Part shown: in pieces, positions 8,573-40,669 of the stretch
How positions within the stretch are numbered: position 1 is the stretch's first letter
Layout: every line of letters begins with the position of its first letter
From: Planctomycetota bacterium
Lineage (GTDB): Bacteria; Planctomycetota; Phycisphaerae; Phycisphaerales; SM1A02
Assembly (NCBI GenBank): GCA_003671025.1
Contig: QWPW01000002.1
Coordinates: forward strand, 46,299-110,298
Length of the DNA: 64,000 nucleotides
Reading direction: 5' to 3'
Position numbers and translations under genes: made by a program
Notes under the pieces: model-generated
Seen by the model: the letters and a program-made list of their open reading frames with translations, nothing else
The model's database searches: none
What the model was told of the DNA's origin: nothing

Positions 8573-8590
8573 TTGGCGGCAAGGATCTTT

Positions 8591-9685: not shown

Positions 9686-9708
9686 CCGTTGGCACGAACC
9701 ACACCGCA

Positions 9709-15943: not shown

Positions 15944-16504
15944 TCAACGACCTTCCGGTCGCGCGAACTGCACGCTGCGAACTCCGCGCAGCCACACGCG
16001 ACCACTTGCATCGCTCGGCTCAAACCACGCGACCAAATCCACGCTCTGCACCGGAAGCGCATCGCTTCCATGATTGGCAAGCAACGAAAGCGTGAACTCG
16101 TAACACGGGCCCGCCAGTGCGATCGAACGCGATGCATGGGCGACTTCCGCCGACATCACCCATTCACGCAGAGGCTCACCGCCGGCCGTTTCCACCGACG
16201 ACGATTGACCGAGGCGATAGATCGAGAAGTGAAATGTCCCCGCACAAAACAGCGGCGCGGGATGCGGTTTGGAGAAGAGATACGCCGTGATGTTCAGCGA
16301 ATCCGGAAAGAGATTTCCATCGCTGTCCGCCGGCTTCGGGCCAAACGTGACTGCCATCGCGTTGGGCATCGTGCCCGCCGGAGCCACCGGACTCAGGGTG
16401 GGTTTGCGCACAGGCGCAGTGCCATCCGACGTGGTGGTCTTCGTTTCACACGCTGTGCCCTGAAGCACGCATATCGCCAACAGTGCGGCGCGAGACACTC
16501 GCAT
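15944..16504 (-). CDS. Lipoprotein coupled to the giant secretin gene
   Basis: A 186-residue protein. MRVSRAALLAICVLQGTACE is a signal peptide ending in a lipobox-like GTAC, so it is probably lipidated at Cys. The mature part has a Thr/Pro linker followed by a beta-rich domain with PDSLNITAYLFSKPHPAPLF, FHFSIYRLG, YEFTLSLLANHG and LVAWFEPSDASGRVW. I recognise no named family, though similar one-domain lipoproteins of unknown role seem common in planctomycetes. Its ATG overlaps the stop of the giant secretin by one base (TGATG), and a GTG lies just upstream, so translation is coupled. By analogy a secretin-associated lipoprotein could act as pilotin, but this fold is not evidently that of known pilotins. 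Confidence 0.7.
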   Translation of the reverse strand: MRVSRAALLAICVLQGTACETKTTTSDGTAPVRKPTLSPVAPAGTMPNAMAVTFGPKPADSDGNLFPDSLNITAYLFSKPHPAPLFCAGTFHFSIYRLGQSSSVETAGGEPLREWVMSAEVAHASRSIALAGPCYEFTLSLLANHGSDALPVQSVDLVAWFEPSDASGRVWLRGVRSVQFARPEGR

Positions 16505-19500
16505 CACTGGACAACTCCCGCGCTGCTTGGAGTTGTTGCAGGTGTTGTTGTCGGTGTCGTTACAGGTGTCGCAGTTGCGGGCGATGGACTCGCTGCTTCA
16601 TCTGTTGGCCCCAACTTCGGACCGGCACCGTCATCGGTTTCTGGAATCTTCGTGAGATCTGTCGCCGAGCCTGACGACGTCTTCGTCTGCACGCCTTGCA
16701 GTTCGCCCTTGCGAATCTGATCAAGCAACGCGGCCGGCAGCGTGAGTTTGTTGAGTTGCGACTCGGTGATTTCCCTCGCGCGATCGATCCCGCCAGAAGA
16801 CGGCGAACGGATGACATGCGGTGTCAGCACGATCAACAACTCGGTCTTCGAACTGCTCTCTTTGAACTGGCGAAACAACACGCCCAACAGCGGGATGTCG
16901 CCGAGAAGTGGAATCTTGGTGTCGACGCGCTCGAAACGATCGCTGATGAGTCCACCGATGACCACGGTTTGCCCATCCTTCACCGTCACCGTTGTGGTGG
17001 CGCGGCGACGAGTCACCACTGGGCTCTCGAAGTTCTCCGAGATTTGCGTGGTTTGCAGCGAGAGTCGCGAGATCTCTGGCTCGATCTCCATGCGCACAAA
17101 GCCTTCGGGATTGATCGACGGCGTGACCTTGAGCAAGATGCCGATGTCCTCAGGCGTCACGCTTGACTGCTGTCCCGCAGCCGAAAAACTCACCGCGTCA
17201 GGAAGTCGCACCGTCTCGCCGACTTGGATAGAGCCTTCCGAATTGTTCTCCACCATCACCGATGGATTGGACAACACCTGAACTCGACTCTGCGAAGCAA
17301 GCGCGTTGATGAGCAGTTCAAAGTCTTCCGCGCCAATGGCAACGTTGGGCGTTCCCGAATTGGAGAACAACGAACCCAACAGCTGATTTCCTCGTTTTCC
17401 GCCCACGCCGTTGAGGTTGCCCAGGCCCGCCACAACACCAAACTCACCAATCTGGCCCAAACCAAACTCAGGCCCGAGTGATTCAGTTGAATCCAACGAC
17501 ACTTCCGCGAGCAGCACTTGAATCAGCACTTGTGGCGGATCGACATCGAGTTCGTCAATGATCGCCTTCACGCGCTCGAGATATTTAGGACTCGCATTGA
17601 CCAGCACGGTGTTGGATTTCTGATCACCCACCACCGTGACTTCGCCTTCGAGCATCTTCGACGCGCTGGGAAGTTCTTCCGCCGACAACGTCTGCAGAAT
17701 CTTGCGTTGATCTTCGCTCACGAACTCATTGACCACGCGCGCGACTTCGATCGCGGTTGCGTTCTTGAGTTTGTAGACGCAAGTCTCGCGCTCGTTCGCC
17801 TCTTGCGCGTCGAGTTCGTTGACGACTTTCTCCACCAGCTCGAGGTAGTTGGGCGTGCCCGAAACCAAGAGTGAGTTGGTGCGATCATCGACCGTGATCG
17901 AGAGTTGCATGCGGTCATCGGGAACGAGCGTGAGATCAGAGCCGAGCATGTCCCCTGCATTGGGAGTTGCCGCAGTCGCCGCGCTTGCGTTGGCCATTGC
18001 ATCGCCGGGCTCGCGCGGCTTGAGCACATACAGATTGCCCGATTGGCGCAGATTGAACAGTTCCTTGAGGATGCGCGCCATTGCGCTGGCATCCGCGTTG
18101 GTGAGTTTGAAGATGCGAATGTTCTGACTGCCGCTGGTCGAGCTGTCGAGATCCTTGATCATCCGCTCGATCAACTCCATGGACTCGCGCGGCGCGCGCA
18201 CGATCACGGTGTTGGTACGGACATCGGGCGTGAGCGAAATCGATTGCCGAGTCGCCGCCGAAATCTCCATCTCAATCTCATCGCCCTCGACGCCTTCGAT
18301 CTGCTTGAGGTACTTCAACACCGTCGCCTGCTGACCTCCACGTCCCGCGAGCGAATTGCCCGAGAGCACATTCTGAATCAGCGCAACCGTCTCTTGCACA
18401 TTCGCGCCTTGCAACGGGATGTACTTGATCTCCACCACACTCTGCGGCGTGGCACCATCGAGTTGCGCGACGAGTCGACGAATCGCCGAGACATCGGCTT
18501 CGGGCCCACTGGCGATGATCGCGTTGAGACGCGCATCGGCAGAAACCTGAATCGTGTTCGCGCCGCGTCGACGATTCTCTTCGCCGACATACATCTCATC
18601 GAGCATGCGAACCATGTCCGCCGCCGTGGTCTTGGACAACACAAGAATTTCAAACGGCTTGTCCGCGAGTTGATCTTGCGCTGCCTTGGCTAGCAGTTCG
18701 ACAAGTCCTTTGACCACTTGGAGATTCTCTTCGCTCGACGCAATGATGAGCGCGTTCGACGCAACATCGGGCATGATCGAAACTGCATCCGACGGCACTT
18801 CCGAAGTCCCCAACGAATCGGCGCGGTCACGCATCAACTGTTGCAGTCGAGGCGCAATCGATTCAGCGCGCGCGGCGTCAAGCGCAAGCACATGCACGCC
18901 AATCGCTGGATTTGCGGGGATTGCGTCGAGTTTGGCCACGATCTGCCGCACCAACGCGCCGTCCTCTGGTCCACCGGCAACGAGCAAGCACGACGTGCGC
19001 GGATCGGCAATGACCAACGGCTTCACCCGCTTGGCCACCTCGGGCGAGAGTTCGGCGTAGCGACGATTGAGAATTTGCGTGATCGCGCCCGCGAGCCGAT
19101 CGAGATTCGCTTTCTCCACGGGAATGACTTCGACGCCCGACTCTTCCATGAGTTGATCGGTGTCGAGATCGACGAGCAACGACTGCAACACATCAAACGC
19201 ATCGGCGCCCGCGGCGACCAACAGTTGATTGGTGCGTTCATCGGCGGCGATGACTACGCGTTCGAGATCGGCAGTCTCAGGACTCGATCGCTTGAGTCGA
19301 TCAACGCGCGCATCCATCATGCGCGTCAAGATTGCGGCGAGACGCGGCGCGCTCGCGTTCTTGAGATCAAGCGTGCGAATCTCGCGGATGTCGGGCGACA
19401 CTTTGAGATCGAGACTCTTGAGCAGTTCCTCAAGCACCGCAAACGAACGCGTGCTGGTCGAAACCACAATCGAGTTCAAGCGCTCATCGGGAACGACGCG

Positions 19501-22500
19501 CACACGGTCTTCGGCGCGAATCGCCTTTGCGGCAAACTGTTGATCAAACAACTGCACCAACAGTGGACCGATGCGCGACGCGCTCGCGTTTTCCAACGGA
19601 TAGATACGCACCAACGCACCCGGCGCCGCAGCTTCGGTGTCGAGCAGCTTGACCAACTCCAACACGATCTCGAGATTCTGCGTGCTCGCGACCAACACCA
19701 ACGAGTTGGTGGACATGTCGGGACGAATCACCAACTGCGTGAACGGGACGAAGACATCGCTTTCGATCGACGTCGCCGCAGCACCAGGATTTGCGCGCGC
19801 CATGCGAATGCGACCGACCTGCTTCTGCAACGGTCCGCTCTCGGGCAAGTTGGTCGAACCATCGACCAACACTGCGCGCAAAAGATCGGCGATGTCACGC
19901 GCGTCGGCGTATTGCAACTTGATGATGCGTGGCTCGATCCATCCCACCGCTGTTTGCGAATCAAGACGTTCGCGCAGCACATCGACCAACGCCACTGCCT
20001 CTTCTTTTCCCGCGACCACCACAGTGTTGGTGCGATCATCCACCGAGATCGCGATGTCTTGCGCCAGCGCTTCGCCAGTTGCGCCACCCGCTTGCGCTTT
20101 CACTTGCGTGCCCGTGAGCCCGCCGATTTGTTTTCCTTGCGCGAACAACTCGCGCACGATGCGCACGAACTGAGTCGCTTGAATGTTCTCCAACGGGAAG
20201 ATGCGCACTGTCGCGGCGTCGGTCACTGGCAGCGAGTCAAACAATCGCGCCGCCTCTTCAAGCGCGCGCACATTGTCTGGTGTCGATGCAATCACAATCG
20301 AGTTGCTAGTGACGTCGGCGAAGATCTTGATCGGCTTCTGCAAGTCGAGCGCAATCGGTTCGCCCGTGCCATCAGGCTGAATGCGCAGTCGACGCACTTG
20401 CTCTTGCAGCGCGCGCGCGAGATCGCCCGTCTTTGCTCCCGCTGCCGCTGGCGCCGTGGATTGCGCCACCATCGCATTGAGGGTTACTGCAACGCTCAAT
20501 GCTGCAGCGTTCTTCATGCGCACGACTCGCATCTGCGCGTCGGCCGTCGGTGGATCAGCGTCAATTGATTTGAGCAGCGACACGATGGTGTCGCGATCAG
20601 CGGGATTGGCCACGATGACCAACGCACTGCGGCCGCTCGCCACCGCAACTTTGAGCGGTTCAGAAATCACCTTGGACACGCTGTCGAGTGCTTGCGGCTT
20701 ATCGAGGCCGATTTCTTCGATGATCTTCTTCGCGGCTTCAGGCGCAGTATTCACCAAGTCAATGATGAAGATTCCCTTCGATGAATCTGGCGCGAGCGAG
20801 TCCATTTGCTCGACCAACGCTTTGATCTCATCAAAGATCGGACCTGTCGACGCAATCACCAATCCGTTGGACACCGTGTCGATCTGAATCGAGAGCGGAA
20901 GATTCGCTTGCCGCGCGCGCTGCGCAAACGCATCGCGAATCGCACTGGCAATGCGTGACGCTGGTGCTGCCTTCAGTTGCAGCAGATGAACTTGCAGTCC
21001 TTGTTCTGTCGCTTGTTGTTGCAACGCTTCGGCGATGGCCGCGATCTGCGCGTAGTCCTCGTCGGAAGCGCGCACGATGAGCGCGTTGCTGGTGGCATCG
21101 CCGACGATGCGCAGTCCGCGATCGCGTCCATTGTTGCGACCCAATCCGTAGACGCGCTCGATGGAACGCGCGAGTTGCTCGGGATTTCCGTAACGCACTT
21201 CGATAAGACGAGGCGGTGGCAACTGTGCGAAATCAGGCTGATCGAGCTGTGCAATGATCGCTTCGATCTTGCGCATGTTGGCTGGGCTCGCCGCGATGAC
21301 GAGATTGTTGGAGAACTCATCGGCGCTCGCGCTGACGAACTCTTCAGGCTTCACTTGATTGACGATGACCGGTTGCGCTTCGCCTTCCTTCGGCTTCGCA
21401 TCAGGAGGTCGGTTCACGGGCTGGGCGCGAAACGCGTCGTTGATCGCCGCCGCAATACTGCGCGCATCGGCATGCTTGAGTCCGATGACGCGCAACTGAC
21501 GCGAACCGTCAAACTGTTCGCTGTCGAGCTTGATCACCAACTCACGAATCGCGGGCCACTCGGATTCTTCGGCCGAGATCACCAATGAGTTCGTTGCTTC
21601 ATCACCGACGATGCGCACCGATTGCTTCGCAGGCGAATCAGGGTCGACCGCGAACTGTCCGTAGAAGTAGCCCAACGCTTCTTCCACACCCGCGGCCTTC
21701 GCACTCTTGAGCGGCACAAATTCGGTGATTCGTTTACGCGTGCTGGGAATATCAATCGCCTTCACCACTTCGGTGATGGTGGCGAATTGCTCGGCAGTTC
21801 CCGCGATGATCAGTCGGTTCTCGACGGGATCCGCTTCGATGCGCGGGCCTTCGTCCGCCACTCCATTTTCCGTCGCAGGGGTTACTCCTGCGGCGAGCCG
21901 CTCGAGAGTCATTGCGATTTCGCGCGCAGCCGCGTGATGCAAATCAATCACGCGCAATTCGATGGGACTGCGCGCAGGAGCCTCTTCGAGTCCCGCGAGC
22001 AATTTCTCGATGACGGAAAAACTCTCGGCAGTCGCGGTGACGATGATGGTGTTGGATCGTCGATCGGCAACGATGCGTGCGCTCACTTGCACCGCCGGCG
22101 AGTCTGGGTCAATCTTGACCGCAACTCCTTGCGTGCGTCCCTTGCCGTCGAGTTGCAGCGATTGCGTGAGCACGCGCACGGCATCTTCCGCGCGCGCCGT
22201 GGTGAGTGTGAACGTTCGAATGATGGTTTCTTCGGCGCTCGCTGGTGAATCGAGTCGCTCGATCAACGCGCGCACTTGCGTGAACTGTGTTCCAGGCGCA
22301 CTCACCAGAACACTGTTGGTACGCACATCGGCAGTGATGGTGACACCTTGCGCGCCGCCACGACCGCGAAACTGCTCCGAGACCATGCGCGCGATTTCGG
22401 TCGCTTGTCCCTTCTTGAGCACGACGATGTCACTCTGTCGATCGCCACCTGATTGCGGTTGATCCAAGCGCGACACGAGATCGCGAATGGTGCCCAGCTC

Positions 22501-25500
22501 TTCAGGGGTCGCCGCGACGAGCAACGCTCCGCCGGACGCGCTGGGAACAATCGTCGCTCCACTCGCGCCGCCTGCAGCAGCCGCGGCTTTGTCATCGAGG
22601 AACTGCTTCAACGTCTGCGCGATTTCTTCTGGCGTGGCGAATTCCACGGGAATCACCGCAGTTTCACGCCCTTCTTGCGCGAGCGTGGTCGCAAGGCTGC
22701 TCACGAGCGCTGCGATTTCTACGTGCTGCGCCGCCGTCGCACGCACCACAATCTGTCGTGATCGAGGAATGGGAATGATGCGCGAACCTGTGGTTGCCGT
22801 TTGCGTTTCCCACGGTCGTTGCGCGCGCTCACCCAAGGCATCGCGCACCAATGATGCGATCTGTTCGACATCGCCTGCAGGAGCGGCATAGGTCTTCACC
22901 GTGCGCGCTTCGCCTTCGCTCTGCGCAATGTCGAGCGCGTCAACAATTTCGCCAACGAGAGTGAAGCGATCGCCGCGTCCCGCGACAATCAACACGTTGC
23001 GCCGCTCATCACCGCGCACGCTCACTGAATCATCGGGTCCACCGCCGCCCATCTCCATCACCATTTGCTCGACGGTGCGCGCGATGTCGCCCGCACGCGC
23101 GTGACGCAGCGAGATGACTTTGAAGTCGAACGCTTGTGCTGCGTCGGGCGCGTCGAACGATTGCGCAAGCTCGCCGATTTCGGTGAAGTCGGCTTCGCTG
23201 GCCGCGATAAACAGCGTGGAACTGCGGGGATCACCAATGATGGAAACCGAACGCTGTCCACCGCGTGCGCGTCCTGGCACCGCGATCTGCGCGCGATCAT
23301 CAAACAGTTTTTGTAACGCTTGTGCGACGCGCGTTGCATCGGCACGCTCGAGTTTGATCTGGCGAATCGCAAACTGTCGCGTTGCGCTGCGATCGATCTC
23401 TTTGAGAACCGCACGAATCTCCGCGAGCACAGTCTCATCCGCGCGCACGAGCAACACACCGGCCGCGTCATCGGCAACCACTTGTGTGTTCTCGCGACGA
23501 GAAGCGTCGAGCGCGAGCACAACCTTGTCGATGGTGGCTGCGGCTTCACTTGGCGTGGCATTCGCTAACGCGATGGTCTCGAGAGGCAACTTGCCACTCG
23601 CGCTGGGTTCATCGAGACGACTCACGATGCGCTGAATCTCCGGCGCGACTTCTGCTCCACCCGCGACGAGAATCGTGTTGGTGCGATCGTCCGCCGAAAA
23701 TTCCGGCGCACTCACCACGATGCCTTGTTGCGAGAGCGAGCGTCCGCGCGCAGCAAAGATCGCTTGCAAATTGCGCGCGAGTTCACTGGCTTTCGCATAT
23801 TTCAGCGGAATCAAACGCATTTCGGGCGCCAAGGCGCGCTCTTCGCGATCAGCAAACGCGACGAAGCGATCGGCGAACGCGACTGCTTCGGGCGAGCCAA
23901 TCACGGTGATCGCATTGATCCCCTTCTCGGCAAACACGCGAAGTTTGGTGGGATCAAACGTCACATCCGAGAGCACGCTCTCGGCGGACGTTGCATCAAC
24001 AGCAGCTCCGTCTTGGACAACAACTGGCGCAACATCGTTGGCAATCGTCACTGCGAGTGCGCGCAACTTCGCGCCGCCGCCTTGCGCGAGCACCGCTTGC
24101 AACGCTTCGGCGATGCGCGATGCACCAGCGTTGCGCAGTGGGTAACTCTTCACCACCACTTGTTCAGTCTGCTGACCGCGCGCAAGCGTCGCGACCAGTT
24201 GACCCACCGAATCGAAATCGCGGTCGCTCGCAACAACGAGGAGTGACCGCGTCTCCTCGTCGGCAACGATGGCAATCCTCTTCGCGAGATCACCAACAGC
24301 GCCACCTGCAGGCGTCATGCGCGCGATTGCGCCCACCACGATCGATGCTAGTTTTGTTGGATCGCTCGACGCAGGAAGTTTGATCGAGCGAATACGCGAG
24401 CCTTCGCCCGGAAGTGATTTCGATGCTTGCTCGATGAGCCGCATCGCACGTTCGATTTCGCGCGGCGAACCGAGCAACAACAACGAGTTTGAGTCCTTGT
24501 CGACGGCGACGGTCACGCCTTGCGCTTGCTTCACTTCATCGGTTGCGGGCGCGTTGACTGGCGCGACAGCGTCTGGCGGAGTTTGCGCAAACACCGCGCT
24601 CATAAACGCGAATCGCGCCGGCAGCATCGGTGGCCAAACAGGTTGCGCGCTGTCGATCGAACCCACATCACCACGCGAACCGTTCGGTGGTTTCTTCTCG
24701 GGTTCGTAACGCTTGAGCAGTTCTTCGACCGAGATCACTTCCACGGATTCGTCGGACGATTCCATCATGCGTCGCACCAAACGCGCGACCTCTTCGGCAT
24801 CGCCATTCGCTGGATCAAGCGGCACTGAACGCAGCGTGCGCGTCGTCGCGACTGACGCGCTGTCCAACTTAGAGACGATTCCTTCGATGGTCGCGTACTG
24901 CTTGTTAGTCGCACGCACCAGCAAACTGTTGCTCGCGAGATTGATGCGAATGGTGGGCGGAGTTTCGGTGCCGTCGTCGGTCTCGAACAGATCGACCAAA
25001 CTTTTGGCGATCTCAGCGGCATCAGCGTTGCGCACCGAAAGCACGCGCACCGTGCGATCACTCTCGCCCTGAGTCACGACATCGAGTTGCAGCAACATCT
25101 CTTCCGCGGCATCGAGCGCACTAGGCATCGCCGAGATGATCACGGCGTTGAGTCGTTCGTCCGCGATGACGCGCAGCGGCGGTTCCGCACTCGCGCCAAC
25201 GGGCAATGCGGGACGCGCGCGTTCTGCGCGACGCTCTTCACCTGCGAGCAGTTGCTCGACCAACGGAGCCATCTGCGCCGCACGCGCATTCTTGAGGAAC
25301 ACGGTGCGCACACGCGCAGCATCACGCGGACCACGCACGTCAATCGCGCGAATCACCGCATCCACTTCATCGAGCTGCGCAGGATCAGCAGTGACCACGA
25401 TGGAATTACTCGTCGCTTCCGCGCTCACTGATGCGCGGCGACGATTTGGCTGCGACGCCGCGCGCGCACTCAACGCTTGCTCCACCGCTTTGGCCACGTC

Positions 25501-28500
25501 CGCGGCGCCCGCTTGCGCGAGCGGATACACGCGAATCTCGACCGGCTCATCGCCGTCACGCGGACGATCCAATTGCCCCACGACTTCACTGGCCAATGGC
25601 ATCAGTTCGGTGGGCGCGGTGATGATCACGCGGGCATTGAGCGGATCAGCGACCGCCTTGGGCTCGACCACGGCAACGCCAGCTTTCGCCGCCGCCACCA
25701 ACGACGCGGGCCATCGCGAACGATCAAGCAACACCGCATTGAGCGCATTCACCGCGACATCAGGTGAAATGTGCTTGAGCTGAATCACGCGAAAATCCGC
25801 AGCAGGAGCAGCAAACGCCTGCGCATCGAGTTGGGTGAGCAACTCTTTCGCCTGCGCCGCGCCCTCGACAGTCCCGATGATGACGATGGTTCCCGATTGC
25901 GCAAGCGCGGAGAGTTCGGTGCGATTCGCGCCCGACGTTCCGGTTGCTTCGAGCACGCGACGCGCTTCATCGACCAGTGCCGCGACGGGCGCCTTGAGCG
26001 GTGTGAACATCGCCCATGTGCGATTCGCCGCATCGCCTTCGCGATCGAGTTCTTTGATGAGTCCTTCAGCCACCGCCATGATGCGCGCGGCTCCCGAAAC
26101 GATGAGCGCGTTGGTGCGCCCATCGGCTTCGACATTTACCGGCGGAGTCGCATCGGGCTGTCCGCGATTGCGTCGCATGCGCTCGAGCACGATGCGCGGA
26201 TCGGCTTGCTGCTGATCCGAAAGCAATCGTTGCACCAAGGGTGCGATGCGCGCCGCGTCGGCATTCTTGAGCGTGAATGATTTCGCATCGACCGCATCAA
26301 GCGAGGGCGATTCATCGAGCGGCGTGATCAGTTTTTCTGCTTCATCGAGATCGCTCGGTGGACCAACCAACAACAGCGCGTTGGCTCCTGCCGCGGCAAT
26401 CACTTTCACTGCCAACGGTTCGCGGGTGGTGGGATTCGTCGCTGCGGCAAGTGCCTGCGACAAACTCACCGCGACTTGCGCGGCATCGGCATACGACAAC
26501 GGCCGCACACGAACGATGGGCTCACCAGTTGTGACGTTGCCCTCATCGAGTTGGCGCACCAACTCTTCGACCACGGGAATCAACATGTCGGGCGCGCTGA
26601 CGATGAGCGCGTTCGACCGTCGATCCGCCGCGACATCGAGCACGCGATCTTGCTTGGCTACGAGCATCGGCTCGATTTGCGCCAATCGTCCTTCGAGCGC
26701 ACTGCGCACCAACGGCGCGAGAATCTCGGCTTTGGCAACCTTGAGTTTGAACACGCGCAATGTCGTCGCAGGCTGCGCCGCTCCTTCGATGCCACGCACG
26801 ATCTGTTCGACCTTGGTGAAAATCGCCGGAGGTCCACTCACTACCAACGTCTTCGATACAGGCTCGACACTGACGACTGTTCCCGAACCTTCAGTACCGA
26901 GTTGGCCTGCGGTCGCGAGTTCGCGAATCGTCTTGGCCACCGTCTCAAGATTCGCGTCGGACAAACGCCACGTGTGAATCTCAGCATCAGGCGTTGCTTG
27001 CGCGCGATCAAGTTGTTCGACGAGTTTTTCAAACCCAGCCATGCGCGACATCGGCGCATCGACGATGAGCGAGTTGGTTGGTCCATCTGCGCGCACCACC
27101 ACTTCACGCGGCGGCTGCAACTCGGGGCGTGCGCGGCCACGCGGATCAACGGGCACCGGCGGCTGCGGATACATCTCGTCGATGGTCTTGGCCAACTCCG
27201 CAGCACGCGCGACCTTCAGTGAGAAGATGCGAATCTCGCGGTCCGAAGCGGACTGACGCGTCGCACCGTTGAGGTCTTCGACCAACTGCTGAATCTCGGG
27301 CAACAAGTCGGGATGCACTGCGACGATGAGCGCGTTTGTTTGCGGTTCCGCCGTGATTTGCACGGGTTTCTGATTCTTCTCATCGGGCGCGCGTTGCGCG
27401 TAGCTCGCATTGAGCGCCGAGGCGAGTGTGGTCGCATCAGCGCTGCGAAGTTGCAGAATGCGCAGTGGCGGCGTGTTGCCCGCGGGCACATCAAGGTTCT
27501 TCACCAACATCGCGAGCAACTCATGTTGCCGCGCATCGGCCGCGACCAACACTGAATTCGTTTTCTCCAACACTTCAATCGCAGGCTCACGCGCGAAGCC
27601 CGCAGATTGTCCAAGACGACTCGCGGCCATGCCATCGAGATACGCCTTCACATCAACCGCCTTGGTGTGTGCGATGGGAATCACGCGCACATCAACACTC
27701 GGCGTCGTCGCCACCAACAGTTGACGACACGCATCGGTGAATCGCGCCAACGGCTCTTCGTCGCCACTGGCCACGATGGTTCCGTTGGCCGTATCGATCT
27801 CGGTTTCGATGGTCGGGCTCTCGCCTTCGACCACTTCGAACGCCGCAAGCTTGTTGGCCTTGATCACAATTTGCGCAGCATCGGCGGCGCCAACATCAAT
27901 CACGCGCACGCCGCGCTTGGTCGCCACCGCTTGCAATTGCTTGAGCAACTGCTCGGTCTTTTCAAACGTGGTGCTGTCGCCCGCGACGATGAGCGTGCGG
28001 CTCAACGGCTCCGCTTGAATCAACACTTCCACAGGCTTCGTGCCATCGACTGGAGGCTTGGCCAACATTCCGCGCGCGGCGAGGTCGCGCAAACTCTGCG
28101 AGATACGCTCGATGTCGCCCTTGTCCACGTGATAGGTACGCAGTTCCGCTTGCGGAGGAAGCGGCGTGCGATCAAGTGTCTGCACCAGTTGTTCGAAGCT
28201 CGCGCGTCGTTCGGTGGGCGCTTCGACGATGAGCGAATTCGTCGTCGGATCAGCCGCGACAAATACTTCCTTCGGCTTCTGCAAGTGAGGCAGAGGACGA
28301 CCACGCGCATCGAGTGGAACTGGTGGCGCGGGATAAAGTCGATCAAGCGCGGTGGCCAAATCAACGGCCTTCGCAGACTTGAGTCCCACCACAAATGTTT
28401 CGCGTGTTGGACCAACGCCCGCATCGCCCGCGCGATTCATCTCATCGATAAAGGTGCGCACCTCTTCGAAGATGTCCGCGTGCGCCGTGAGGATGAGCGT

Positions 28501-30987
28501 GTTGGTGGTGGAATCGCTTTCGATACGCACTGGTTTGGCGCGGCGCTCTTCGGGTGCGCGTCCGTCGAAACGTTTGGCCAACATCGCGGCGATTTGCGCT
28601 GCGTCGCCGCCACGTACTTGGAGCAGTCGCAGCGGTGGCAACTCTTCCGGCGCGGTCACATCAAGATCAGTGATGAAAGTCTCGAGCAACGCCAACTGCG
28701 GCGCTTCACCGACAACATAGAGCGCGTTGCTCGGCTCAATGACTTTGATTTCGATCGGCGCAACGTTGCGCGCAGGGTCAAGCGGCACAGCGCTCGCGAC
28801 CAGTGGCGCCAACTTCGCGGCAACATCAGCGGCCGCAGCAACACGCATGGGAATAATCTTGCCCACGCGCGGAGGCGGCATGAGTGTGCGCGCCTGCATG
28901 ATCGCTTGCTCATAGAGCGTGACTGCTTCTTTGCCACCACTCACCAGCAACGCGCCACTCGCCGCATCGACTTCGATAGTGGGAAGCGGAAGATCTGGAG
29001 AGTCCGCGCCTGTGCCAGCGCCGCGCGCAATCTGCGCGTACACCGAACTTGCGCGCTCAACCAGTTTGTTCGCGTCCACGCCAGGAACAGGAATCGCTCG
29101 GAACGAAAATGCATCGCGCGAAGGACGATCGAAACCTGCAACCAGTGATTGCACTTGCGCGACTTGGCTGGGCGTTCCCGAAATCAACAGCGACTTGGTT
29201 GCGTCAAGCGGTTCGATCACCGGCGGCGTAAACGTGGTGCCATCGCGCGGATCGAGAATCTGTTTGGCCAACTCGCGCAGTTGCGGCGCGATCGCGCTGG
29301 GCAACGCGTTGTTCACTGCAATTTGTCGCGTCTCGCGTTCGATCGCACGTGAAGCATCGACTTGATTGAGCAACTCGGTGAAGCGCTGAATCGATTGCGC
29401 GCTACCGACCAACACCAACTCGCGACTCTTCTCATCGAGCTCGATGCGCAGGCTGCGCGCGGGATCGGCGGCTGGTGTTTGTTGTTCGTAAAGCTCACGC
29501 GTGCGAGTCACGGTCTGCTCAGGGTTCGCACTCGTGAGGCGCATCATGCGCACTTGTCGTTCGACGTTGGTGGGACGATCGAGTGTGTCGACAATCGCGC
29601 GAATGCCCGCGATATCCGCGGAATCGCCCGCGATCAACACCGTGCGTCCATCGGGACCCGCGACCAACGACGTCTCATCTTGTTGCCGCTTCGAGAGCAA
29701 CGACTTCGCCGCCGCGAGAATCGCGTCGGGTGATGCGCTCTCCAACTCGATCGCCGCAATCGCGCGATCGCCACGCAAACGCTCGCGCACACTCGCTGAC
29801 TTTCGCGCGATGGTCGAAGGATCGAATCCTTCCATCTCGCCGATGAATCGTTCGGCATCGTCAATCGATGCGAGATCACCGACCACAGTGACGCGCTCTG
29901 CTTCTGGCAGCGCCACGATCGTTGGCTTCTTGTCCGCGGGATAGCCCACGAAAAGTTGCTCGAGGCGTTCCTTCGCTGCGGCGGCTTTCACCTTCACCAC
30001 TGAAAATGTCTTCATGCCTCGACCACCAGAAGCGGTCGGCGAGGCGCCGTTAGCCACAGGCACATCAAGCAATTCGATGGTCTGCTTGAGTTGTTCGATC
30101 TTGGCTCTTGAACCGCGCGCCACGATGGAGTTGGTGCGATCATCGGCCGCGACCACCAGACCAGCGACGCGATTCTCCTCGATTTTGCTGCGTTTCCCGT
30201 CGGCGGGATTGATCACGTACTCAACGACGCGTTCGCCCATGAGTGCTTGCAAACTCTTGAGCAGCGTCGTCGCTTGTGCGTGTTGAATCGCAATGAACTC
30301 GATCACGTTCTCGACATCTTGACGATCGAGTTCATCGATGATCAGTTGCAATCGACGCACTTGCGCCGCGGTCTCGACGATGAGCACTGCGTTCTGTTGT
30401 TCGAGCGCCGTCACCGATCCGTAGGTCGCGATGAGATTCTTGAGTTGCTCTGCGACGGGCTTCGCTTGCGCATTGAGCAGCGGCAAGACCACAGTGACGA
30501 TTTGGTCGTCGGTGATTTGCGCGGGCAACGTTCCCACAAACGTCGGAACATTCTCCTTCTTCATCTCATCGAGCTTCTGCAGAAACAGCCGTCCGCCTTC
30601 CACGCGCAGCATGCAATCTTGAGTTTGCAACAACACGTTGAGCGTCTGCAACGCTTCGCTAAGCGAGTAATCCTTGGGATAGATGTAGTCGACAGTGCCC
30701 TTAGGGACTTCGATTTCGCGCACGATGGGATAGCCAGTGACGCGACTGAAGTAGTCGAGAATCTGGTCGTACGTCTGCCCCTTGAAATTGAATCGCAGTC
30801 GAGGCGCGGGCGTGGCTTGTGACGCGCTCGTTGGTGGAGCAGTCGGCGCACTCGACTCTTGTGTTGGTGCGACGGGAGTCGTCGCGTCGCTTGCAGTTTG
30901 CGCCAACGCGCCCACGGGATTGGTCGCCATGACCGCCGCCAAAAGCGGCGTGAGTCCTGGCGCTGACAACGGAAGGCGCTTTTTCAT
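16504..30987 (-). CDS. gspD: Giant type II secretion secretin GspD with about 52 N-modules
   Basis: An uninterrupted 4827-residue outer-membrane secretin, about seven times the size of ordinary GspD (650-700). The start at 30987 has GAGGAG seven bases upstream and a textbook signal peptide (MKKRLPLSAPG..., cleavage after GALA). Residues 61-135 form an N0/STN-like domain (LRFNFKGQTYDQILDYFSRV). Residues about 140-4480 are about 52 tandem NolW/Secretin_N-type modules, each near 83 residues, most with a D-x-R-T-N-S-L-I-V-type strand (DDRTNSLLVSG, DPTTNSLIVEA). Residues about 4480-4727 are one complete secretin pore domain: VQVLSNPSVMVENNSEGSIQ, DGQTVVIGGLISDR and IPLLGDIPLLGVLFRQFK. The tail is Thr/Pro-rich. 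It is preceded by gspM and followed by a coupled lipoprotein. Known GspD forms the outer-membrane channel. Why so many periplasmic modules are present is unknown. Confidence 0.95.
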   Translation of the reverse strand: MKKRLPLSAPGLTPLLAAVMATNPVGALAQTASDATTPVAPTQESSAPTAPPTSASQATPAPRLRFNFKGQTYDQILDYFSRVTGYPIVREIEVPKGTVDYIYPKDYSLSEALQTLNVLLQTQDCMLRVEGGRLFLQKLDEMKKENVPTFVGTLPAQITDDQIVTVVLPLLNAQAKPVAEQLKNLIATYGSVTALEQQNAVLIVETAAQVRRLQLIIDELDRQDVENVIEFIAIQHAQATTLLKSLQALMGERVVEYVINPADGKRSKIEENRVAGLVVAADDRTNSIVARGSRAKIEQLKQTIELLDVPVANGASPTASGGRGMKTFSVVKVKAAAAKERLEQLFVGYPADKKPTIVALPEAERVTVVGDLASIDDAERFIGEMEGFDPSTIARKSASVRERLRGDRAIAAIELESASPDAILAAAKSLLSKRQQDETSLVAGPDGRTVLIAGDSADIAGIRAIVDTLDRPTNVERQVRMMRLTSANPEQTVTRTRELYEQQTPAADPARSLRIELDEKSRELVLVGSAQSIQRFTELLNQVDASRAIERETRQIAVNNALPSAIAPQLRELAKQILDPRDGTTFTPPVIEPLDATKSLLISGTPSQVAQVQSLVAGFDRPSRDAFSFRAIPVPGVDANKLVERASSVYAQIARGAGTGADSPDLPLPTIEVDAASGALLVSGGKEAVTLYEQAIMQARTLMPPPRVGKIIPMRVAAAADVAAKLAPLVASAVPLDPARNVAPIEIKVIEPSNALYVVGEAPQLALLETFITDLDVTAPEELPPLRLLQVRGGDAAQIAAMLAKRFDGRAPEERRAKPVRIESDSTTNTLILTAHADIFEEVRTFIDEMNRAGDAGVGPTRETFVVGLKSAKAVDLATALDRLYPAPPVPLDARGRPLPHLQKPKEVFVAADPTTNSLIVEAPTERRASFEQLVQTLDRTPLPPQAELRTYHVDKGDIERISQSLRDLAARGMLAKPPVDGTKPVEVLIQAEPLSRTLIVAGDSTTFEKTEQLLKQLQAVATKRGVRVIDVGAADAAQIVIKANKLAAFEVVEGESPTIETEIDTANGTIVASGDEEPLARFTDACRQLLVATTPSVDVRVIPIAHTKAVDVKAYLDGMAASRLGQSAGFAREPAIEVLEKTNSVLVAADARQHELLAMLVKNLDVPAGNTPPLRILQLRSADATTLASALNASYAQRAPDEKNQKPVQITAEPQTNALIVAVHPDLLPEIQQLVEDLNGATRQSASDREIRIFSLKVARAAELAKTIDEMYPQPPVPVDPRGRARPELQPPREVVVRADGPTNSLIVDAPMSRMAGFEKLVEQLDRAQATPDAEIHTWRLSDANLETVAKTIRELATAGQLGTEGSGTVVSVEPVSKTLVVSGPPAIFTKVEQIVRGIEGAAQPATTLRVFKLKVAKAEILAPLVRSALEGRLAQIEPMLVAKQDRVLDVAADRRSNALIVSAPDMLIPVVEELVRQLDEGNVTTGEPIVRVRPLSYADAAQVAVSLSQALAAATNPTTREPLAVKVIAAAGANALLLVGPPSDLDEAEKLITPLDESPSLDAVDAKSFTLKNADAARIAPLVQRLLSDQQQADPRIVLERMRRNRGQPDATPPVNVEADGRTNALIVSGAARIMAVAEGLIKELDREGDAANRTWAMFTPLKAPVAALVDEARRVLEATGTSGANRTELSALAQSGTIVIIGTVEGAAQAKELLTQLDAQAFAAPAADFRVIQLKHISPDVAVNALNAVLLDRSRWPASLVAAAKAGVAVVEPKAVADPLNARVIITAPTELMPLASEVVGQLDRPRDGDEPVEIRVYPLAQAGAADVAKAVEQALSARAASQPNRRRASVSAEATSNSIVVTADPAQLDEVDAVIRAIDVRGPRDAARVRTVFLKNARAAQMAPLVEQLLAGEERRAERARPALPVGASAEPPLRVIADERLNAVIISAMPSALDAAEEMLLQLDVVTQGESDRTVRVLSVRNADAAEIAKSLVDLFETDDGTETPPTIRINLASNSLLVRATNKQYATIEGIVSKLDSASVATTRTLRSVPLDPANGDAEEVARLVRRMMESSDESVEVISVEELLKRYEPEKKPPNGSRGDVGSIDSAQPVWPPMLPARFAFMSAVFAQTPPDAVAPVNAPATDEVKQAQGVTVAVDKDSNSLLLLGSPREIERAMRLIEQASKSLPGEGSRIRSIKLPASSDPTKLASIVVGAIARMTPAGGAVGDLAKRIAIVADEETRSLLVVASDRDFDSVGQLVATLARGQQTEQVVVKSYPLRNAGASRIAEALQAVLAQGGGAKLRALAVTIANDVAPVVVQDGAAVDATSAESVLSDVTFDPTKLRVFAEKGINAITVIGSPEAVAFADRFVAFADREERALAPEMRLIPLKYAKASELARNLQAIFAARGRSLSQQGIVVSAPEFSADDRTNTILVAGGAEVAPEIQRIVSRLDEPSASGKLPLETIALANATPSEAAATIDKVVLALDASRRENTQVVADDAAGVLLVRADETVLAEIRAVLKEIDRSATRQFAIRQIKLERADATRVAQALQKLFDDRAQIAVPGRARGGQRSVSIIGDPRSSTLFIAASEADFTEIGELAQSFDAPDAAQAFDFKVISLRHARAGDIARTVEQMVMEMGGGGPDDSVSVRGDERRNVLIVAGRGDRFTLVGEIVDALDIAQSEGEARTVKTYAAPAGDVEQIASLVRDALGERAQRPWETQTATTGSRIIPIPRSRQIVVRATAAQHVEIAALVSSLATTLAQEGRETAVIPVEFATPEEIAQTLKQFLDDKAAAAAGGASGATIVPSASGGALLVAATPEELGTIRDLVSRLDQPQSGGDRQSDIVVLKKGQATEIARMVSEQFRGRGGAQGVTITADVRTNSVLVSAPGTQFTQVRALIERLDSPASAEETIIRTFTLTTARAEDAVRVLTQSLQLDGKGRTQGVAVKIDPDSPAVQVSARIVADRRSNTIIVTATAESFSVIEKLLAGLEEAPARSPIELRVIDLHHAAAREIAMTLERLAAGVTPATENGVADEGPRIEADPVENRLIIAGTAEQFATITEVVKAIDIPSTRKRITEFVPLKSAKAAGVEEALGYFYGQFAVDPDSPAKQSVRIVGDEATNSLVISAEESEWPAIRELVIKLDSEQFDGSRQLRVIGLKHADARSIAAAINDAFRAQPVNRPPDAKPKEGEAQPVIVNQVKPEEFVSASADEFSNNLVIAASPANMRKIEAIIAQLDQPDFAQLPPPRLIEVRYGNPEQLARSIERVYGLGRNNGRDRGLRIVGDATSNALIVRASDEDYAQIAAIAEALQQQATEQGLQVHLLQLKAAPASRIASAIRDAFAQRARQANLPLSIQIDTVSNGLVIASTGPIFDEIKALVEQMDSLAPDSSKGIFIIDLVNTAPEAAKKIIEEIGLDKPQALDSVSKVISEPLKVAVASGRSALVIVANPADRDTIVSLLKSIDADPPTADAQMRVVRMKNAAALSVAVTLNAMVAQSTAPAAAGAKTGDLARALQEQVRRLRIQPDGTGEPIALDLQKPIKIFADVTSNSIVIASTPDNVRALEEAARLFDSLPVTDAATVRIFPLENIQATQFVRIVRELFAQGKQIGGLTGTQVKAQAGGATGEALAQDIAISVDDRTNTVVVAGKEEAVALVDVLRERLDSQTAVGWIEPRIIKLQYADARDIADLLRAVLVDGSTNLPESGPLQKQVGRIRMARANPGAAATSIESDVFVPFTQLVIRPDMSTNSLVLVASTQNLEIVLELVKLLDTEAAAPGALVRIYPLENASASRIGPLLVQLFDQQFAAKAIRAEDRVRVVPDERLNSIVVSTSTRSFAVLEELLKSLDLKVSPDIREIRTLDLKNASAPRLAAILTRMMDARVDRLKRSSPETADLERVVIAADERTNQLLVAAGADAFDVLQSLLVDLDTDQLMEESGVEVIPVEKANLDRLAGAITQILNRRYAELSPEVAKRVKPLVIADPRTSCLLVAGGPEDGALVRQIVAKLDAIPANPAIGVHVLALDAARAESIAPRLQQLMRDRADSLGTSEVPSDAVSIMPDVASNALIIASSEENLQVVKGLVELLAKAAQDQLADKPFEILVLSKTTAADMVRMLDEMYVGEENRRRGANTIQVSADARLNAIIASGPEADVSAIRRLVAQLDGATPQSVVEIKYIPLQGANVQETVALIQNVLSGNSLAGRGGQQATVLKYLKQIEGVEGDEIEMEISAATRQSISLTPDVRTNTVIVRAPRESMELIERMIKDLDSSTSGSQNIRIFKLTNADASAMARILKELFNLRQSGNLYVLKPREPGDAMANASAATAATPNAGDMLGSDLTLVPDDRMQLSITVDDRTNSLLVSGTPNYLELVEKVVNELDAQEANERETCVYKLKNATAIEVARVVNEFVSEDQRKILQTLSAEELPSASKMLEGEVTVVGDQKSNTVLVNASPKYLERVKAIIDELDVDPPQVLIQVLLAEVSLDSTESLGPEFGLGQIGEFGVVAGLGNLNGVGGKRGNQLLGSLFSNSGTPNVAIGAEDFELLINALASQSRVQVLSNPSVMVENNSEGSIQVGETVRLPDAVSFSAAGQQSSVTPEDIGILLKVTPSINPEGFVRMEIEPEISRLSLQTTQISENFESPVVTRRRATTTVTVKDGQTVVIGGLISDRFERVDTKIPLLGDIPLLGVLFRQFKESSSKTELLIVLTPHVIRSPSSGGIDRAREITESQLNKLTLPAALLDQIRKGELQGVQTKTSSGSATDLTKIPETDDGAGPKLGPTDEAASPSPATATPVTTPTTTPATTPSSAGVVQ
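17546..30570 (-). repeat. Array of about 52 degenerate NolW-like modules
   Basis: Reading the protein by eye I count about 52 successive units of 70-115 residues. Each begins with a strand like RVIxLKxADAxxIA, continues through a variable loop, then the D-x-R-T-N-x-L-I-V strand, and ends with a helix like IxxLVxxLDxP. Sequence identity between units is mostly low, so these are old protein-level repeats and not DNA-level tandem copies. Units 25, 27, 42, 43, 44, 50 and 51 carry longer insertions. The count may be off by one or two where a unit is weak (units 3, 12, 20, 41). Confidence 0.85.
26525..28868 (-). repeat. Two five-module blocks duplicated in tandem in gspD
   Basis: Block A (about 27701-28868, residues 706-1095) and block B (about 26525-27700, residues 1096-1487) each hold five modules in the same order. 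Matching landmarks are YPAPPVPLDARGRPLPHLQ in A and YPQPPVPVDPRGRARPELQ in B; DPTTNSLIVEAPTERRASF and DGPTNSLIVDAPMSRMAGF; LRLLQVRGGDAAQIAAML and LRILQLRSADATTLASAL; LDVTAPEELPPL and LDVPAGNTPPL. The spacing between equivalent landmarks is about 1160 bases, which shows growth of the array by multi-module duplication. Confidence 0.8.
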
Positions 30988-30994
30988 TCGCTGG

Positions 30995-31000
30995 CTCCTC
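30995..31000 (-). promoter_or_regulatory. Ribosome-binding site of giant gspD
   Basis: GAGGAG on the minus strand ends seven bases before the ATG at 30987. It decides the start against an in-frame codon at 31017, which would add ten residues before the signal peptide and has no such site. Confidence 0.85.
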
Positions 31001-31297
31001 GAGATTCTCGCTGTCACGCGGCGAGTCCAATTCTTCGACTGTCGATTGATTCATCAGCGATGAATCACAGGCTTGCAGCGCGGTGTTGAGTCACCGTCTT
31101 CAAGCCTCAAAGTTCAAGCCCGCGCAAAAAACCACGCCTGCGCCTGAACCGAAATCCTGAACGAGTATCTGACGCCTCACCCCTCAACCCGCCAGTGCGA
31201 CGGGGTGCTGTACGAGTTGCATGCATCAAACATTGCATGGAACCTCGCACGGCCTAAGGGGCTCGACCTTGCGCCGCACACTCTGTCCCAACGCACT
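31001..31297. other. Non-coding gap before giant gspD
   Basis: Almost 300 bases separate the gspM stop from the gspD start in an operon whose other genes overlap or nearly touch. I see no ORF with coding bias, no clear sigma-70 or sigma-54 promoter and no strong terminator. It may hold a promoter for separate control of gspD or a long leader, but the sequence alone does not show it. Confidence 0.4.
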
Positions 31298-32353
31298 CTA
31301 TTGAGTACCTTGGGCACGTTGCGTGAGATTGTTTCCGATCTGAACGCGGCAAGATCCGCCGGGCGCGTCGAATACTGCGAAATCGTACTCAACCGCGCGT
31401 AAAACAAGTTCGCCCACGGGGGTTCCGGGGACTAGCGTAAGTGCCGCGCCGCTAGGAACATGACGGAGCCACGCCTCGGGGCCGGACGGTCCCTCGACCA
31501 CCGCGGTCAACATCCACTCTCCGTAGGGAAAGGCTCCGCTGGGCGCGATGACGGGAAGCTCTGCTCCGGCACCAACGTCTACCGTTGGCGCGGTGCCTGG
31601 CAATACCGCGACCACAGTCGTCGGCGGAGCGATTGGCGGAGGGGGCGGCGGAATGCGAAAGGGGTTCGACGCGAAGAGCTGGTCAAAGCGATTCGCCGAC
31701 GCGAGTACCGCGGGGTCAACGACCAACACCGACTTGGGCGCGCGGCCTGGAAGGAAGATGGTGGTGAGTCGGATCGAGAGTCGAACCGCGCCGCCGTCGG
31801 CGGTCGGATCGAGTCTCATCGACTCGATACGCTTGGTCCAAGGCTCGGCGTCGACTCGGAAAAGCAGGCGGAAGACCTGATCAGCGCGCCCGGAGGCGGT
31901 GATCGAGGCCTGAACCTCCACAAAATCTGGTTCGTCGCGGAGCTTGCGTTCTTCGGGTCGCTTAAACTCTTTCTTGGCGGGGGTTCCTCGGGCGACGGAA
32001 GTTCCCGTCGTGACCGAGAACTCCGAGAAGCCGAGTTCCTCGCAGACGCGGTTGAGGCGGCGACGAACTTCGCTGTCTACCAGTTCGAGCGAGGGCCCGA
32101 GGGTGCGATCGGCAGCGCCAGTGATTTTCTTGTCGAGCGCGGCGCGCCCGTCGCGGTCGGCGCGCGCTTTGGTGAGGACACCGATGTACATGTCGCTGTC
32201 GCTGAGCGCCTTGGTTCGCTCCTCGCTGAGCCGATTCTCACCCACGAGATAGCCGAGGCTCGAGCCGATCACGACCGCGATGGCGATGACCACGCCAAGC
32301 CAGTGGCGCGAGATCCAACGAGGGATCGGATGAGCCATCGCTTGGCTGATCAT
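31298..32353 (-). CDS. gspM: GspM-like inner-membrane protein with GspC-like C-terminal domain
   Basis: A 351-residue bitopic protein. A cytoplasmic N-terminus is followed by one membrane helix (residues about 20-37, WLGVVIAIAVVIGSSLGYLV) and a periplasmic part. Residues about 45-215 resemble GspM/PilO, with a helix and a ferredoxin-like segment (VFRLLFRVDAEPWTKRIESM, LSIRLTTIFLPG). A Pro-rich linker (FRIPPPPPPIAPP) near residue 234 leads to a final domain (residues about 279-345) with WMLTAVVEG, GPEAWLRH, GTPVGELVLRAVEYDFAVF and GGSCRVQIG. This has the beta-pattern of the GspC homology region/PilP, which in known systems binds the secretin N0 domain. No separate gspC is seen, so this may be an M-C fusion. 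The ATG overlaps the gspL stop (ATGA). Confidence 0.7.
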   Translation of the reverse strand: MISQAMAHPIPRWISRHWLGVVIAIAVVIGSSLGYLVGENRLSEERTKALSDSDMYIGVLTKARADRDGRAALDKKITGAADRTLGPSLELVDSEVRRRLNRVCEELGFSEFSVTTGTSVARGTPAKKEFKRPEERKLRDEPDFVEVQASITASGRADQVFRLLFRVDAEPWTKRIESMRLDPTADGGAVRLSIRLTTIFLPGRAPKSVLVVDPAVLASANRFDQLFASNPFRIPPPPPPIAPPTTVVAVLPGTAPTVDVGAGAELPVIAPSGAFPYGEWMLTAVVEGPSGPEAWLRHVPSGAALTLVPGTPVGELVLRAVEYDFAVFDAPGGSCRVQIGNNLTQRAQGTQ

Positions 32354-34038
32354 GAAGATCCTCCGCTTGGCGCGTTTGTGTCCGGCGGCGATGGGTTCGC
32401 GTCACTTGGTGCTGTGACAACGGCTGGTCGCGGCGCGAGGTCCGCGGTACGCACGGTGTACGCAAACGGATATTGCAATCGTCGTCCACCACGCGCGTCG
32501 GCGCCGGTTGAACCGAGTGTGTAACTCTTCTCTTTCACCAACGCATCACGCAAGCCATCGGCGACGGTGCGATCCTTCGCCTCGCCATCGAGAATGAACT
32601 TGAGTTCGGGCGCCGCGATGAATTTTCCACTGCTGCTGTACTCAATGTCAGTGTTGGACAACTGCGCACTCAAACCATCAAGCACAACGCTCGATGGATC
32701 AGGCGCAAAGCGACGCAACGCTTCGAGATGATCAAGCCAAGTCGGCGACATCGCGCGATAGGCTTCAACATGACCGAGCATGAGTTGATCACGCTTGGTG
32801 CGACGAAGTTCGGGCAGCGCGTTACGCGCCTTCAACTCGAGATCATCGCGACGTTCTTCAAGCGCGTGCCAAGACTGGCGACCGAATGTCCATCCACCGA
32901 GTGCCGCGATGAGCAACGCACCAGCGACGATCAACACGCGTTGACGCATGCGCGCCGCAACATCGATCAACGGAGTTGGATGCAACAGATCGATTGCGCC
33001 GCCATTGGTACTCAGCGCTGCCTCGTCTTCGAGCAGCAATCCCACCAGCGGCCAACACGCTGCACGCACCGCGTCGCGCGCTGCAACATCAGGAAAATCC
33101 ACCAGTGGATGCGCGTGAAGCATGCTCACTGAGCATCCGCATGACGTCGCAACTTGTGCTTGCAAGAGTTGTCCCGTGGAGTCGTCGGTTGCGATCACCA
33201 CCCGATCAAGCACCAGTGAAGTCATCGATGTGCGCAGTGCTGCAAGCAAGCGACGCAGCTGTACGTGAATCGCCGTCGCGCGCGTGGTTGCTTCCCCCGT
33301 TGCAAGCGAAGCTCCGCGCGCGTGCAGCAATTCGCCGTTGGAAATGACGACAAACTCCACGCCATCCGCGCACGCGTCGATGAACAACGTCGTGCCGTTG
33401 CGATGGGTTGGATGTGTGCGAATCAATGCCAACGCGCCCAACGCGCGAATTCCCACGCGGGCAACAGGAAGACTCACGCGTGTGACCGCTGCCTGCACGC
33501 GAGCGCTCACTGCTGCGGCCACGATGACTGTCGTTCGTCCCGCGCCTTTGCGCACCAACTGAAAGTCGCCCAACGTTTCGACGCCGCGCGCTTCGACCGA
33601 TTCGGGCGCGTAGTCACGCGCAAGCGCGATGCGCGCCATGCTGCGCACTTCGGCTTCATCATCCGCGGGAAGCTCGACCATTCCCATCAACACGGATTCG
33701 CGCGCGAGCGCCAAGATGCACCCTTGCGCTGCGTCGTTTGCCGAAAATCCATGCGGCGTGAGATCGAGTGGCGCGGGCGCATCGCTCGTTGCCGCAGCAA
33801 GCACATCGACAACATCTGAAGAGTCATCGCGAAGACTTTGCGTCGTCGCGGCAGCATCAATCGCGAACTCGACCGCGCGCGAAATGCTCAACCGGCCTGC
33901 GACGCGTTCGCATTGCACAACGCGCATCGTGACGCCACCAAAGTCGACCGCCATGTTCCGAGCCTTCGAGCCGCGTCGTGTGGACGAACTCTCTGAAGCC
34001 GCAGTGTCGATTGGATCATGGGGTTGAGCGGAGTTCAT
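32350..34038 (-). CDS. gspL: GspL-type (PilM-PilN-like) type II secretion platform protein
   Basis: A 562-residue inner-membrane platform protein. From residue 30 there is an actin-like ASKHA domain like PilM/GspL (MAVDFGGVTMRVVQCE, LARESVLMGMVELPADDEAE, RIALARDYAPESVEARGVET, FIDACADGVEFVVISNGEL). A single membrane helix follows near residues 365-387 (VLIVAGALLIAALGGWTF). The periplasmic part has a coiled coil (LEERRDDLELKARN) and a PilN-like ferredoxin fold (WLDHLEALRRFAPDPSSVVL to YTVR). GspL links the ATPase GspE in the cytoplasm to GspM and the pseudopilus. It lies between gspK and gspM as in standard gsp operons and overlaps gspM by four bases. Confidence 0.85.
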   Translation of the reverse strand: MNSAQPHDPIDTAASESSSTRRGSKARNMAVDFGGVTMRVVQCERVAGRLSISRAVEFAIDAAATTQSLRDDSSDVVDVLAAATSDAPAPLDLTPHGFSANDAAQGCILALARESVLMGMVELPADDEAEVRSMARIALARDYAPESVEARGVETLGDFQLVRKGAGRTTVIVAAAVSARVQAAVTRVSLPVARVGIRALGALALIRTHPTHRNGTTLFIDACADGVEFVVISNGELLHARGASLATGEATTRATAIHVQLRRLLAALRTSMTSLVLDRVVIATDDSTGQLLQAQVATSCGCSVSMLHAHPLVDFPDVAARDAVRAACWPLVGLLLEDEAALSTNGGAIDLLHPTPLIDVAARMRQRVLIVAGALLIAALGGWTFGRQSWHALEERRDDLELKARNALPELRRTKRDQLMLGHVEAYRAMSPTWLDHLEALRRFAPDPSSVVLDGLSAQLSNTDIEYSSSGKFIAAPELKFILDGEAKDRTVADGLRDALVKEKSYTLGSTGADARGGRRLQYPFAYTVRTADLAPRPAVVTAPSDANPSPPDTNAPSGGSS

Positions 34039-39654: not shown

Positions 39655-39668
39655 GGGTTCATAGTAAA

Positions 39669-39698
39669 GCCGCGCACACCTGTTTAGGTATGCGCGGC
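39669..39698 (-). terminator. Hairpin terminator after PEP-CTERM gene
   Basis: GCCGCGCACACCT and AGGTATGCGCGGC form a 13-base stem with one mismatch and loop GTTT. On the minus strand it is followed by TTTACTAT, a short T-rich run. It separates the PEP-CTERM gene from gspF, so gspF probably starts its own transcription unit. Confidence 0.6.
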
Positions 39699-39770
39699 CG
39701 TTGGTATGCATCATTCACTCACTCACACTTCAGTCGTTCAAACGTGATTCATCAGTCACTCGACGAGCGA

Positions 39771-40553: not shown

Positions 40554-40669
40554 GTTTTTTGATGTCCTATTGGCTGTCCGCCGCTTGTTCGTCGACTGCG
40601 TGAACCAATCACGGAGTACGCGGCGAAGACAAATCAAAGATCGAATACAGCGCTGCAGATCCAAATGAA

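Follow-up and report, generated by a model that had tools for sequence, protein, structure and literature searches.

The window, by which we mean the whole 64,000-nucleotide stretch of planctomycete DNA analyzed here, carries on its minus strand a type II secretion system (T2SS) operon in the order F-G-H-I-J-K-L-M-D, whose final gene is a giant gspD-type frame (16504–30987, 4827 aa from its ATG). The longest frame, counted from a GTG start, spans 16504–31017 (4837 aa); we chose the ATG at 30987 because it opens a typical signal peptide, MKKRLPLSAPGLTPLLAAVMATNPVGALA (30901–30987), read from the sequence and with predicted cleavage before Q40 in the numbering of the 4837-aa frame. Behind it, in a single open frame, follow an N0-like region (aa about 73–168; 30514–30801), 52 contiguous secretin N-modules (aa 169–4493; 17539–30513), and one complete secretin pore domain (aa 4572–4737; 16807–17304), giving a subunit mass of 516 kDa. 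A sequence-only reading of this DNA had described just such a 4827-residue frame, with a signal peptide, about 52 N-modules, and a single complete pore, and had placed it in a T2SS operon, without naming a strand; these statements hold.

Pfam searches identify the pore as a PF00263 (Secretin) match at 3.6e-47 over positions 1–169 of the 169-position profile, as in GspD-type pores. PF03958 (Secretin_N) sums to 1330 bits over the giant protein, with 41 stretches passing individually, and a module HMM built in this analysis resolves exactly 52 modules. The two Pfam searches, which the earlier reading had proposed as a check, confirm that the modules are secretin N-domains and that the pore is complete. 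The closest PDB sequence matches are GspD structures (5wq7 at 1.8e-51; 6hcg). The median gap between modules is 2 aa and the median start-to-start spacing 78 aa. The module at position 25 (slot 25 below; aa 2058–2200, 24418–24846) is interrupted by a long linker, and inside the slot lies a short, partly hydrophobic stretch, MLPARFAFMSAVFAQ (aa 2131–2145; 24583–24627). In every giant inspected, the N0-like region can be recognized by where it lies and by its conservation, and it is kept in both groups examined; a search of its profile against the PDB found no relative by sequence, and Pfam STN had no match in the giant protein. We detected no DNA-level tandem repeat inside the gene, which indicates that the modules are old and diverged, and traces of block duplication are visible in the similarity of modules 9–11 to modules 14–16.

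Upstream of the giant gene, on the same strand, the operon encodes the inner-membrane platform protein GspF (414 aa, 38470–39714; PF00482 2.2e-56, GspF 1.5e-94) and the major pseudopilin GspG (178 aa, 37811–38347; PF08334 5.2e-26, TIGR01710 above cut-off). These are followed by four minor pseudopilins: GspH-like (292 aa, 36891–37769; gspH 1.2e-6, below cut-off), GspI-like (162 aa, 36389–36877; XpsI 6.8e-5 and gspI 4.6e-4, below cut-off), GspJ-like (240 aa, 35670–36392; N_methyl above cut-off, gspJ 3e-5 below it), and GspK-like (510 aa, 34141–35673; below cut-off, assigned from an HHH motif and operon position). The giant gene therefore has the GspF, GspG, and minor pseudopilin neighbors of a gspD, with GspF and GspG clear and the minor ones, including GspK, below cut-offs. 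The GspL/PilM-like protein (562 aa, 32350–34038) is itself without a match, and its ortholog in genome G027 matches PilM_2 at 1.3e-9. The GspM-like inner-membrane protein (351 aa, 31298–32353) has a proline-rich linker and a C-terminal domain; just one of eight orthologs gave a T2SSB match (3.6e-4). This C-terminal domain may be HR-like and a possible docking partner for N0; a PDB profile search with it found no relative. GspE-type ATPases are encoded elsewhere in the genome, outside this operon. The giant does not look like a PilQ-type secretin, as a Pfam search found no AMIN match and its neighbors are GspF, GspG, and pseudopilins rather than PilM-N-O-P.

Another secretin of the same genome, 983 aa long, is of the ordinary kind, with four N-modules detected; it lies by a GspK-like gene in a second T2SS-like cluster (L067, on contig C56 of G000). 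A further secretin has 708 aa and one detected N-module. Within the window, genes for a flagellar rod protein of the FlgG type, an FlgA-like protein, and the L-ring protein FlgH lie at 7763–10560 on the plus strand, separated from the giant gene by about 6 kb. Together, the ordinary secretins and the rod and L-ring genes imply that the membranes lie at their usual distance in some places at least, for the latter genes at the flagella.

Array modules are colinear orthologs under purifying selection

To compare arrays, we matched modules between related giants and found that they are one-to-one colinear orthologs, or slots, across three families (f1, f2, and f4). Reciprocal best matches to the window protein in fixed order number 37–52 in f1 and f2 and 36 in a shortened f4 version. 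Across the 47 tabulated giants, in-slot scores average 122–384, as against about 45 out of slot, and slot order gives a rho of 1.00, whereas shuffled orders reach at most 0.57. Slots 1, 2, 27, 32, 42–44, 46, and 49–53 are found in all 47. Length variation in the f1/f2/f4 group mostly reflects missing internal blocks, the middle slots being those that are lost and less conserved; the shortest complete giant found (G018) has 2559 aa and 23–24 modules.

Every module is under purifying selection, with pN/pS per module of 0.08–0.65 (pairwise medians 0.18–0.29), compared with 0.13–0.21 in the pore and 0.56–0.72 in the C-terminal tail; these ratios are indicative because synonymous sites are near saturation. 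The sequence-only reading had argued that nearly all modules are under selection from a strictly conserved D-x-R-T-N strand. Its conclusion was right, on the strength of pN/pS rather than of the motif, which is far from strict: D-x-[RT]-[TSL]-N occurs in about 15 of the 52 modules.

Giant secretins recur across the Phycisphaerae

Among 61 close relatives, secretin frames of 3500–5100 aa occur in many genera, including the single-contig genomes G024 and G046, and the named records among these relatives are mostly Phycisphaerales (Planctomycetota). The closest C-terminal matches, listed phylum-wide, had suggested that giants are limited to one order, a view overturned by a class-wide Secretin_N search in which giants recur across the class Phycisphaerae with 23–63 modules. 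The largest, in G795, has 6169 aa and 63 modules. The search of related genomes for large secretins that the earlier reading had recommended thus revealed many of them, in several families of the class. In another class, that of G161, secretin frames are mostly 1200–1500 aa, with a few of 2000–3300 aa.

Giants (3949–4990 aa when complete) also occur in families f5 and f6, which belong to the same order as the window. They are colinear with one another, and what they have in common with the first group is largely slot 1 plus slots 43–53. In all, we distinguish at least four array groups, each internally colinear: f1/f2/f4, f5/f6/f109/f110/f117, f103, and f114. Between groups there are about 10–23 reciprocal matches, often in poor order. 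Colinearity that extends across families in the second group and is lost between groups within one order is poorly explained by plain divergence in time. The large expansion apparently happened repeatedly, by independent amplification possibly combined with lateral transfer. Secretin trees are consistent with repeated expansion, with weak support at deep nodes; the G866 sequence is cut before the pore domain, so that its placement in the second tree is meaningless.

Several relatives without a giant (G045, G048, G044, G053, G395, G182, and G356) have the corresponding operon with a three-module GspD of 691–873 aa, and these short proteins carry the closest secretin domain, at about 35–41% identity. 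Such relatives, within the order and beyond it, share the F-G-...-D operon of the giant but have three modules in its place. Because a three-module GspD sits in the corresponding operon, the array appears to have grown in place, most likely by amplification from a three-module GspD. For the same reason, we take the 52-module protein as a variant of GspD although it departs from the usual three modules.

Two other apparently short secretins were set aside. One, of 855 aa in G060 (contig C296), runs off the edge of its contig and probably represents the last part of a second giant, and the 801-aa frame of G486 is likewise open. G060 itself (L174, L175, and L178) apparently has two giant secretins, one of 4234 aa and one of at least 3710 aa that continues on another contig.

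Some giants are split within the array

The slot 25 linker, which often contains a hydrophobic stretch, is a fission site in one related genus (g43). In three of its loci (L098, L121, and L153), the giant is encoded by two adjacent genes, each for an exported protein, with the break inside module 25: the first stops halfway through the module, and the second begins with a signal-peptide-like start, positioned where the window protein has its hydrophobic stretch, and continues with the second half. A different break occurs in G974 (L223), where one gene holds 33 modules and the next has a signal-peptide-like start, 15 modules, and the pore. We considered whether the two-gene relatives are assembly errors, against which argue the shared break point in three genomes and the new signal peptide. 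We also considered whether slot 25 is the seam of two fused genes; because the break falls within one module, an intact ancestral module that underwent insertion and then fission is the simpler account. Covalent continuity of the array is evidently dispensable, which non-covalent stacking explains easily.

Modeled modules resemble secretin N-domains

To examine the fold, we modeled two parts of the protein with AF2, the last modules together with the pore (pLDDT 69, pTM 0.37) and slots 13–22 (pLDDT 78, pTM 0.34). Both models show recurring β-α-β-β-α units. Single modeled modules superpose on solved secretin N-domains at 1.4–2.5 Å across about 59–71 residues, and three consecutive mid-array modules, taken as a unit, match GspD N1-N2-N3 approximately, at 5.5–6.2 Å over 188–191 residues. 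By these models, the array modules share the fold of secretin N-domains. The low pTM values mean that AF2 leaves the global shape of the array, tube or folded, undecided. The length of a ten-module block is nearly constant, at 788–804 aa across orthologs down to about 38–40% identity, which suits an array of fixed geometry better than a loosely strung one.

Discussion

Secretins normally have about three to six N-domains, a number thought to be related to the width of the periplasm. The GspD proteins of E. coli, Vibrio (EpsD), Klebsiella (PulD), and Pseudomonas (XcpQ) share with the giant a signal peptide, N-modules folded in the same way, and a C-terminal pore, and their genes likewise stand together with those for GspF, GspG, and minor pseudopilins; the N0-like region of the giant is a candidate counterpart of their N0. 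They differ in size, with about 500–660 aa and three N-modules after N0 compared with 4827 aa and 52 modules. The PilQ of Thermus thermophilus (757 aa) offers a likeness in that its extra N-rings, six stacked rings in total, lengthen the periplasmic channel in an organism with a wide periplasm (PMC5745081); it has been called unusual at six rings, however, and serves a type IV pilus and DNA uptake, whereas the giant has nine times as many modules and belongs to a T2SS operon. We found no report of giant secretins of this kind in the open-access literature. The parts are already known; what the papers searched do not describe is a T2SS secretin at ten to twenty times the usual N-module number, conserved slot by slot and apparently built repeatedly in one class. 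Beyond the sequence-only reading, the present analysis adds slot orthology, class-wide recurrence in at least four architectures, gene breaks within a module, and the origin of the array in place from a three-module GspD.

The giant is best explained as the GspD, or outer-membrane secretin, of a T2SS in which the N-array was amplified in place from three to about 52 modules. We propose, with a probability of roughly one in two, that these modules are stacked into a very long periplasmic conduit. By analogy with known secretins, about 12–15 chains would oligomerize via the C-terminal pore. Each module slot would form one ring, so that about 53 rings would stack into a continuous conduit running from N0 near the inner membrane, perhaps docked on the GspM-like protein through its possible HR domain, to the pore, and this conduit would sheathe a long pseudopilus and its cargo. 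At ~27 Å per ring, a full stack of 52 modules and N0 would measure about 143 nm, and a 15-mer would weigh 7.7 MDa; a conduit of this length would have to be placed where the periplasm is greatly enlarged.

Several results argue for such a stack: the N-domain fold of the modules and the N1-N2-N3-like triplet, the very short linkers and steady block length, slots that are colinear across families and all under purifying selection, and the presence of the remainder of the T2SS. In the split giants, ring–ring contacts would hold the parts together. There are published precedents as well, as N-domains stack as rings in XcpQ, where N0-N1-N2 reach a height of 80 Å (PMC5646246), six rings span the wide periplasm of Thermus in PilQ (PMC5745081), and planctomycetes, namely, Planctomycetia, are documented to have a much enlarged periplasm (PMC5394234). 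The strongest counter-evidence is cell size. Cells of the freshwater Nemodlikiaceae measure only 0.4 x 0.3 µm (PMC6461901), and the genus of the window, also freshwater, is probably close to or within this family; a radial tube of 143 nm is hard to fit into such cells. Also weighing against the stack are the ordinary secretins and flagellar genes of the same genome, the fact that the enlarged periplasm is known for Planctomycetia and not for Phycisphaerae, and the low pTM values and approximate nature of the N1-N2-N3 match.

These same small cells, ordinary secretins, and flagellar genes would suit a contiguous array of another shape than a straight tube. Its chains would bend or fold back and surround the pore with a thick sleeve, cage, or vestibule, all inside a periplasm no wider than usual. 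The variation from 23 to 63 modules between species is in keeping with this arrangement, and the long flexible linker of slot 25 could be a mid-array hinge. It is, however, the only obvious hinge, nearly all other linkers being very short, and in a 12–15-mer every chain would need to fold back clear of its neighbors; we regard this arrangement as possible though rather unlikely. Of the three mechanisms offered by the sequence-only reading, namely, a very long channel, a flexible folded-back scaffold, and a cargo-collecting chamber, the evidence speaks for contiguous stacking rather than a flexible string, and it fits a straight tube as well as a folded one.

A more doubtful proposal is that ring formation is confined to the modules next to the pore, such as slots 43–53, the others serving as a cargo-capturing array with a slot or block for each substrate. 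Each slot does have its own conserved identity, slots 43–53 are common to the first two groups whereas the others are private to each, the middle slots are lost and less conserved, and a passage in PMC5646246 cites reports of secretin N-domains touching secreted substrates. The tight linkers and constant block length speak against it, however, and fission inside a module would detach half of the array unless the halves associate. Finally, an assembly artifact or decaying gene, suggested by frame breaks in some metagenome-assembled genomes (MAGs), is refuted for the gene family, since the gene has no DNA tandem repeat, its modules are under purifying selection and colinear across families, and unbroken giants occur in the single-contig genomes G024 and G046 and on a 3.9-Mb contig of G763, so that the artifact named by the earlier reading as its possible undoing has almost no chance of being the explanation. 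The MAG arrays concerned (L086 and L148) are broken over several frames, probably by sequencing errors.

Extending the stacked-ring conduit to the class, we tentatively envisage about 25 to 64 stacked rings in Phycisphaerae (roughly 70–170 nm and several MDa), arising by several independent expansions and exceeding any described secretin channel. The array may amount to a channel of extraordinary length or to a periplasmic structure of a new kind. Arrays of 23 to 63 modules are natural length variants with which to ask whether N-rings measure the periplasm, the naturally split modules make it possible to ask directly whether rings stack without covalent links, and the giants call for a look at the envelope of these mostly uncultured planctomycetes.

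The gene directly upstream of gspF (39771–40844, minus strand) has its probable true start at M98 and encodes a protein with a signal peptide and a PEP-CTERM-like tail, VPAPGAIALLALAGFVARRRR. Most genomes of the genus have it, three others give weak matches, and its product is a candidate surface protein or substrate of the T2SS with the giant secretin.
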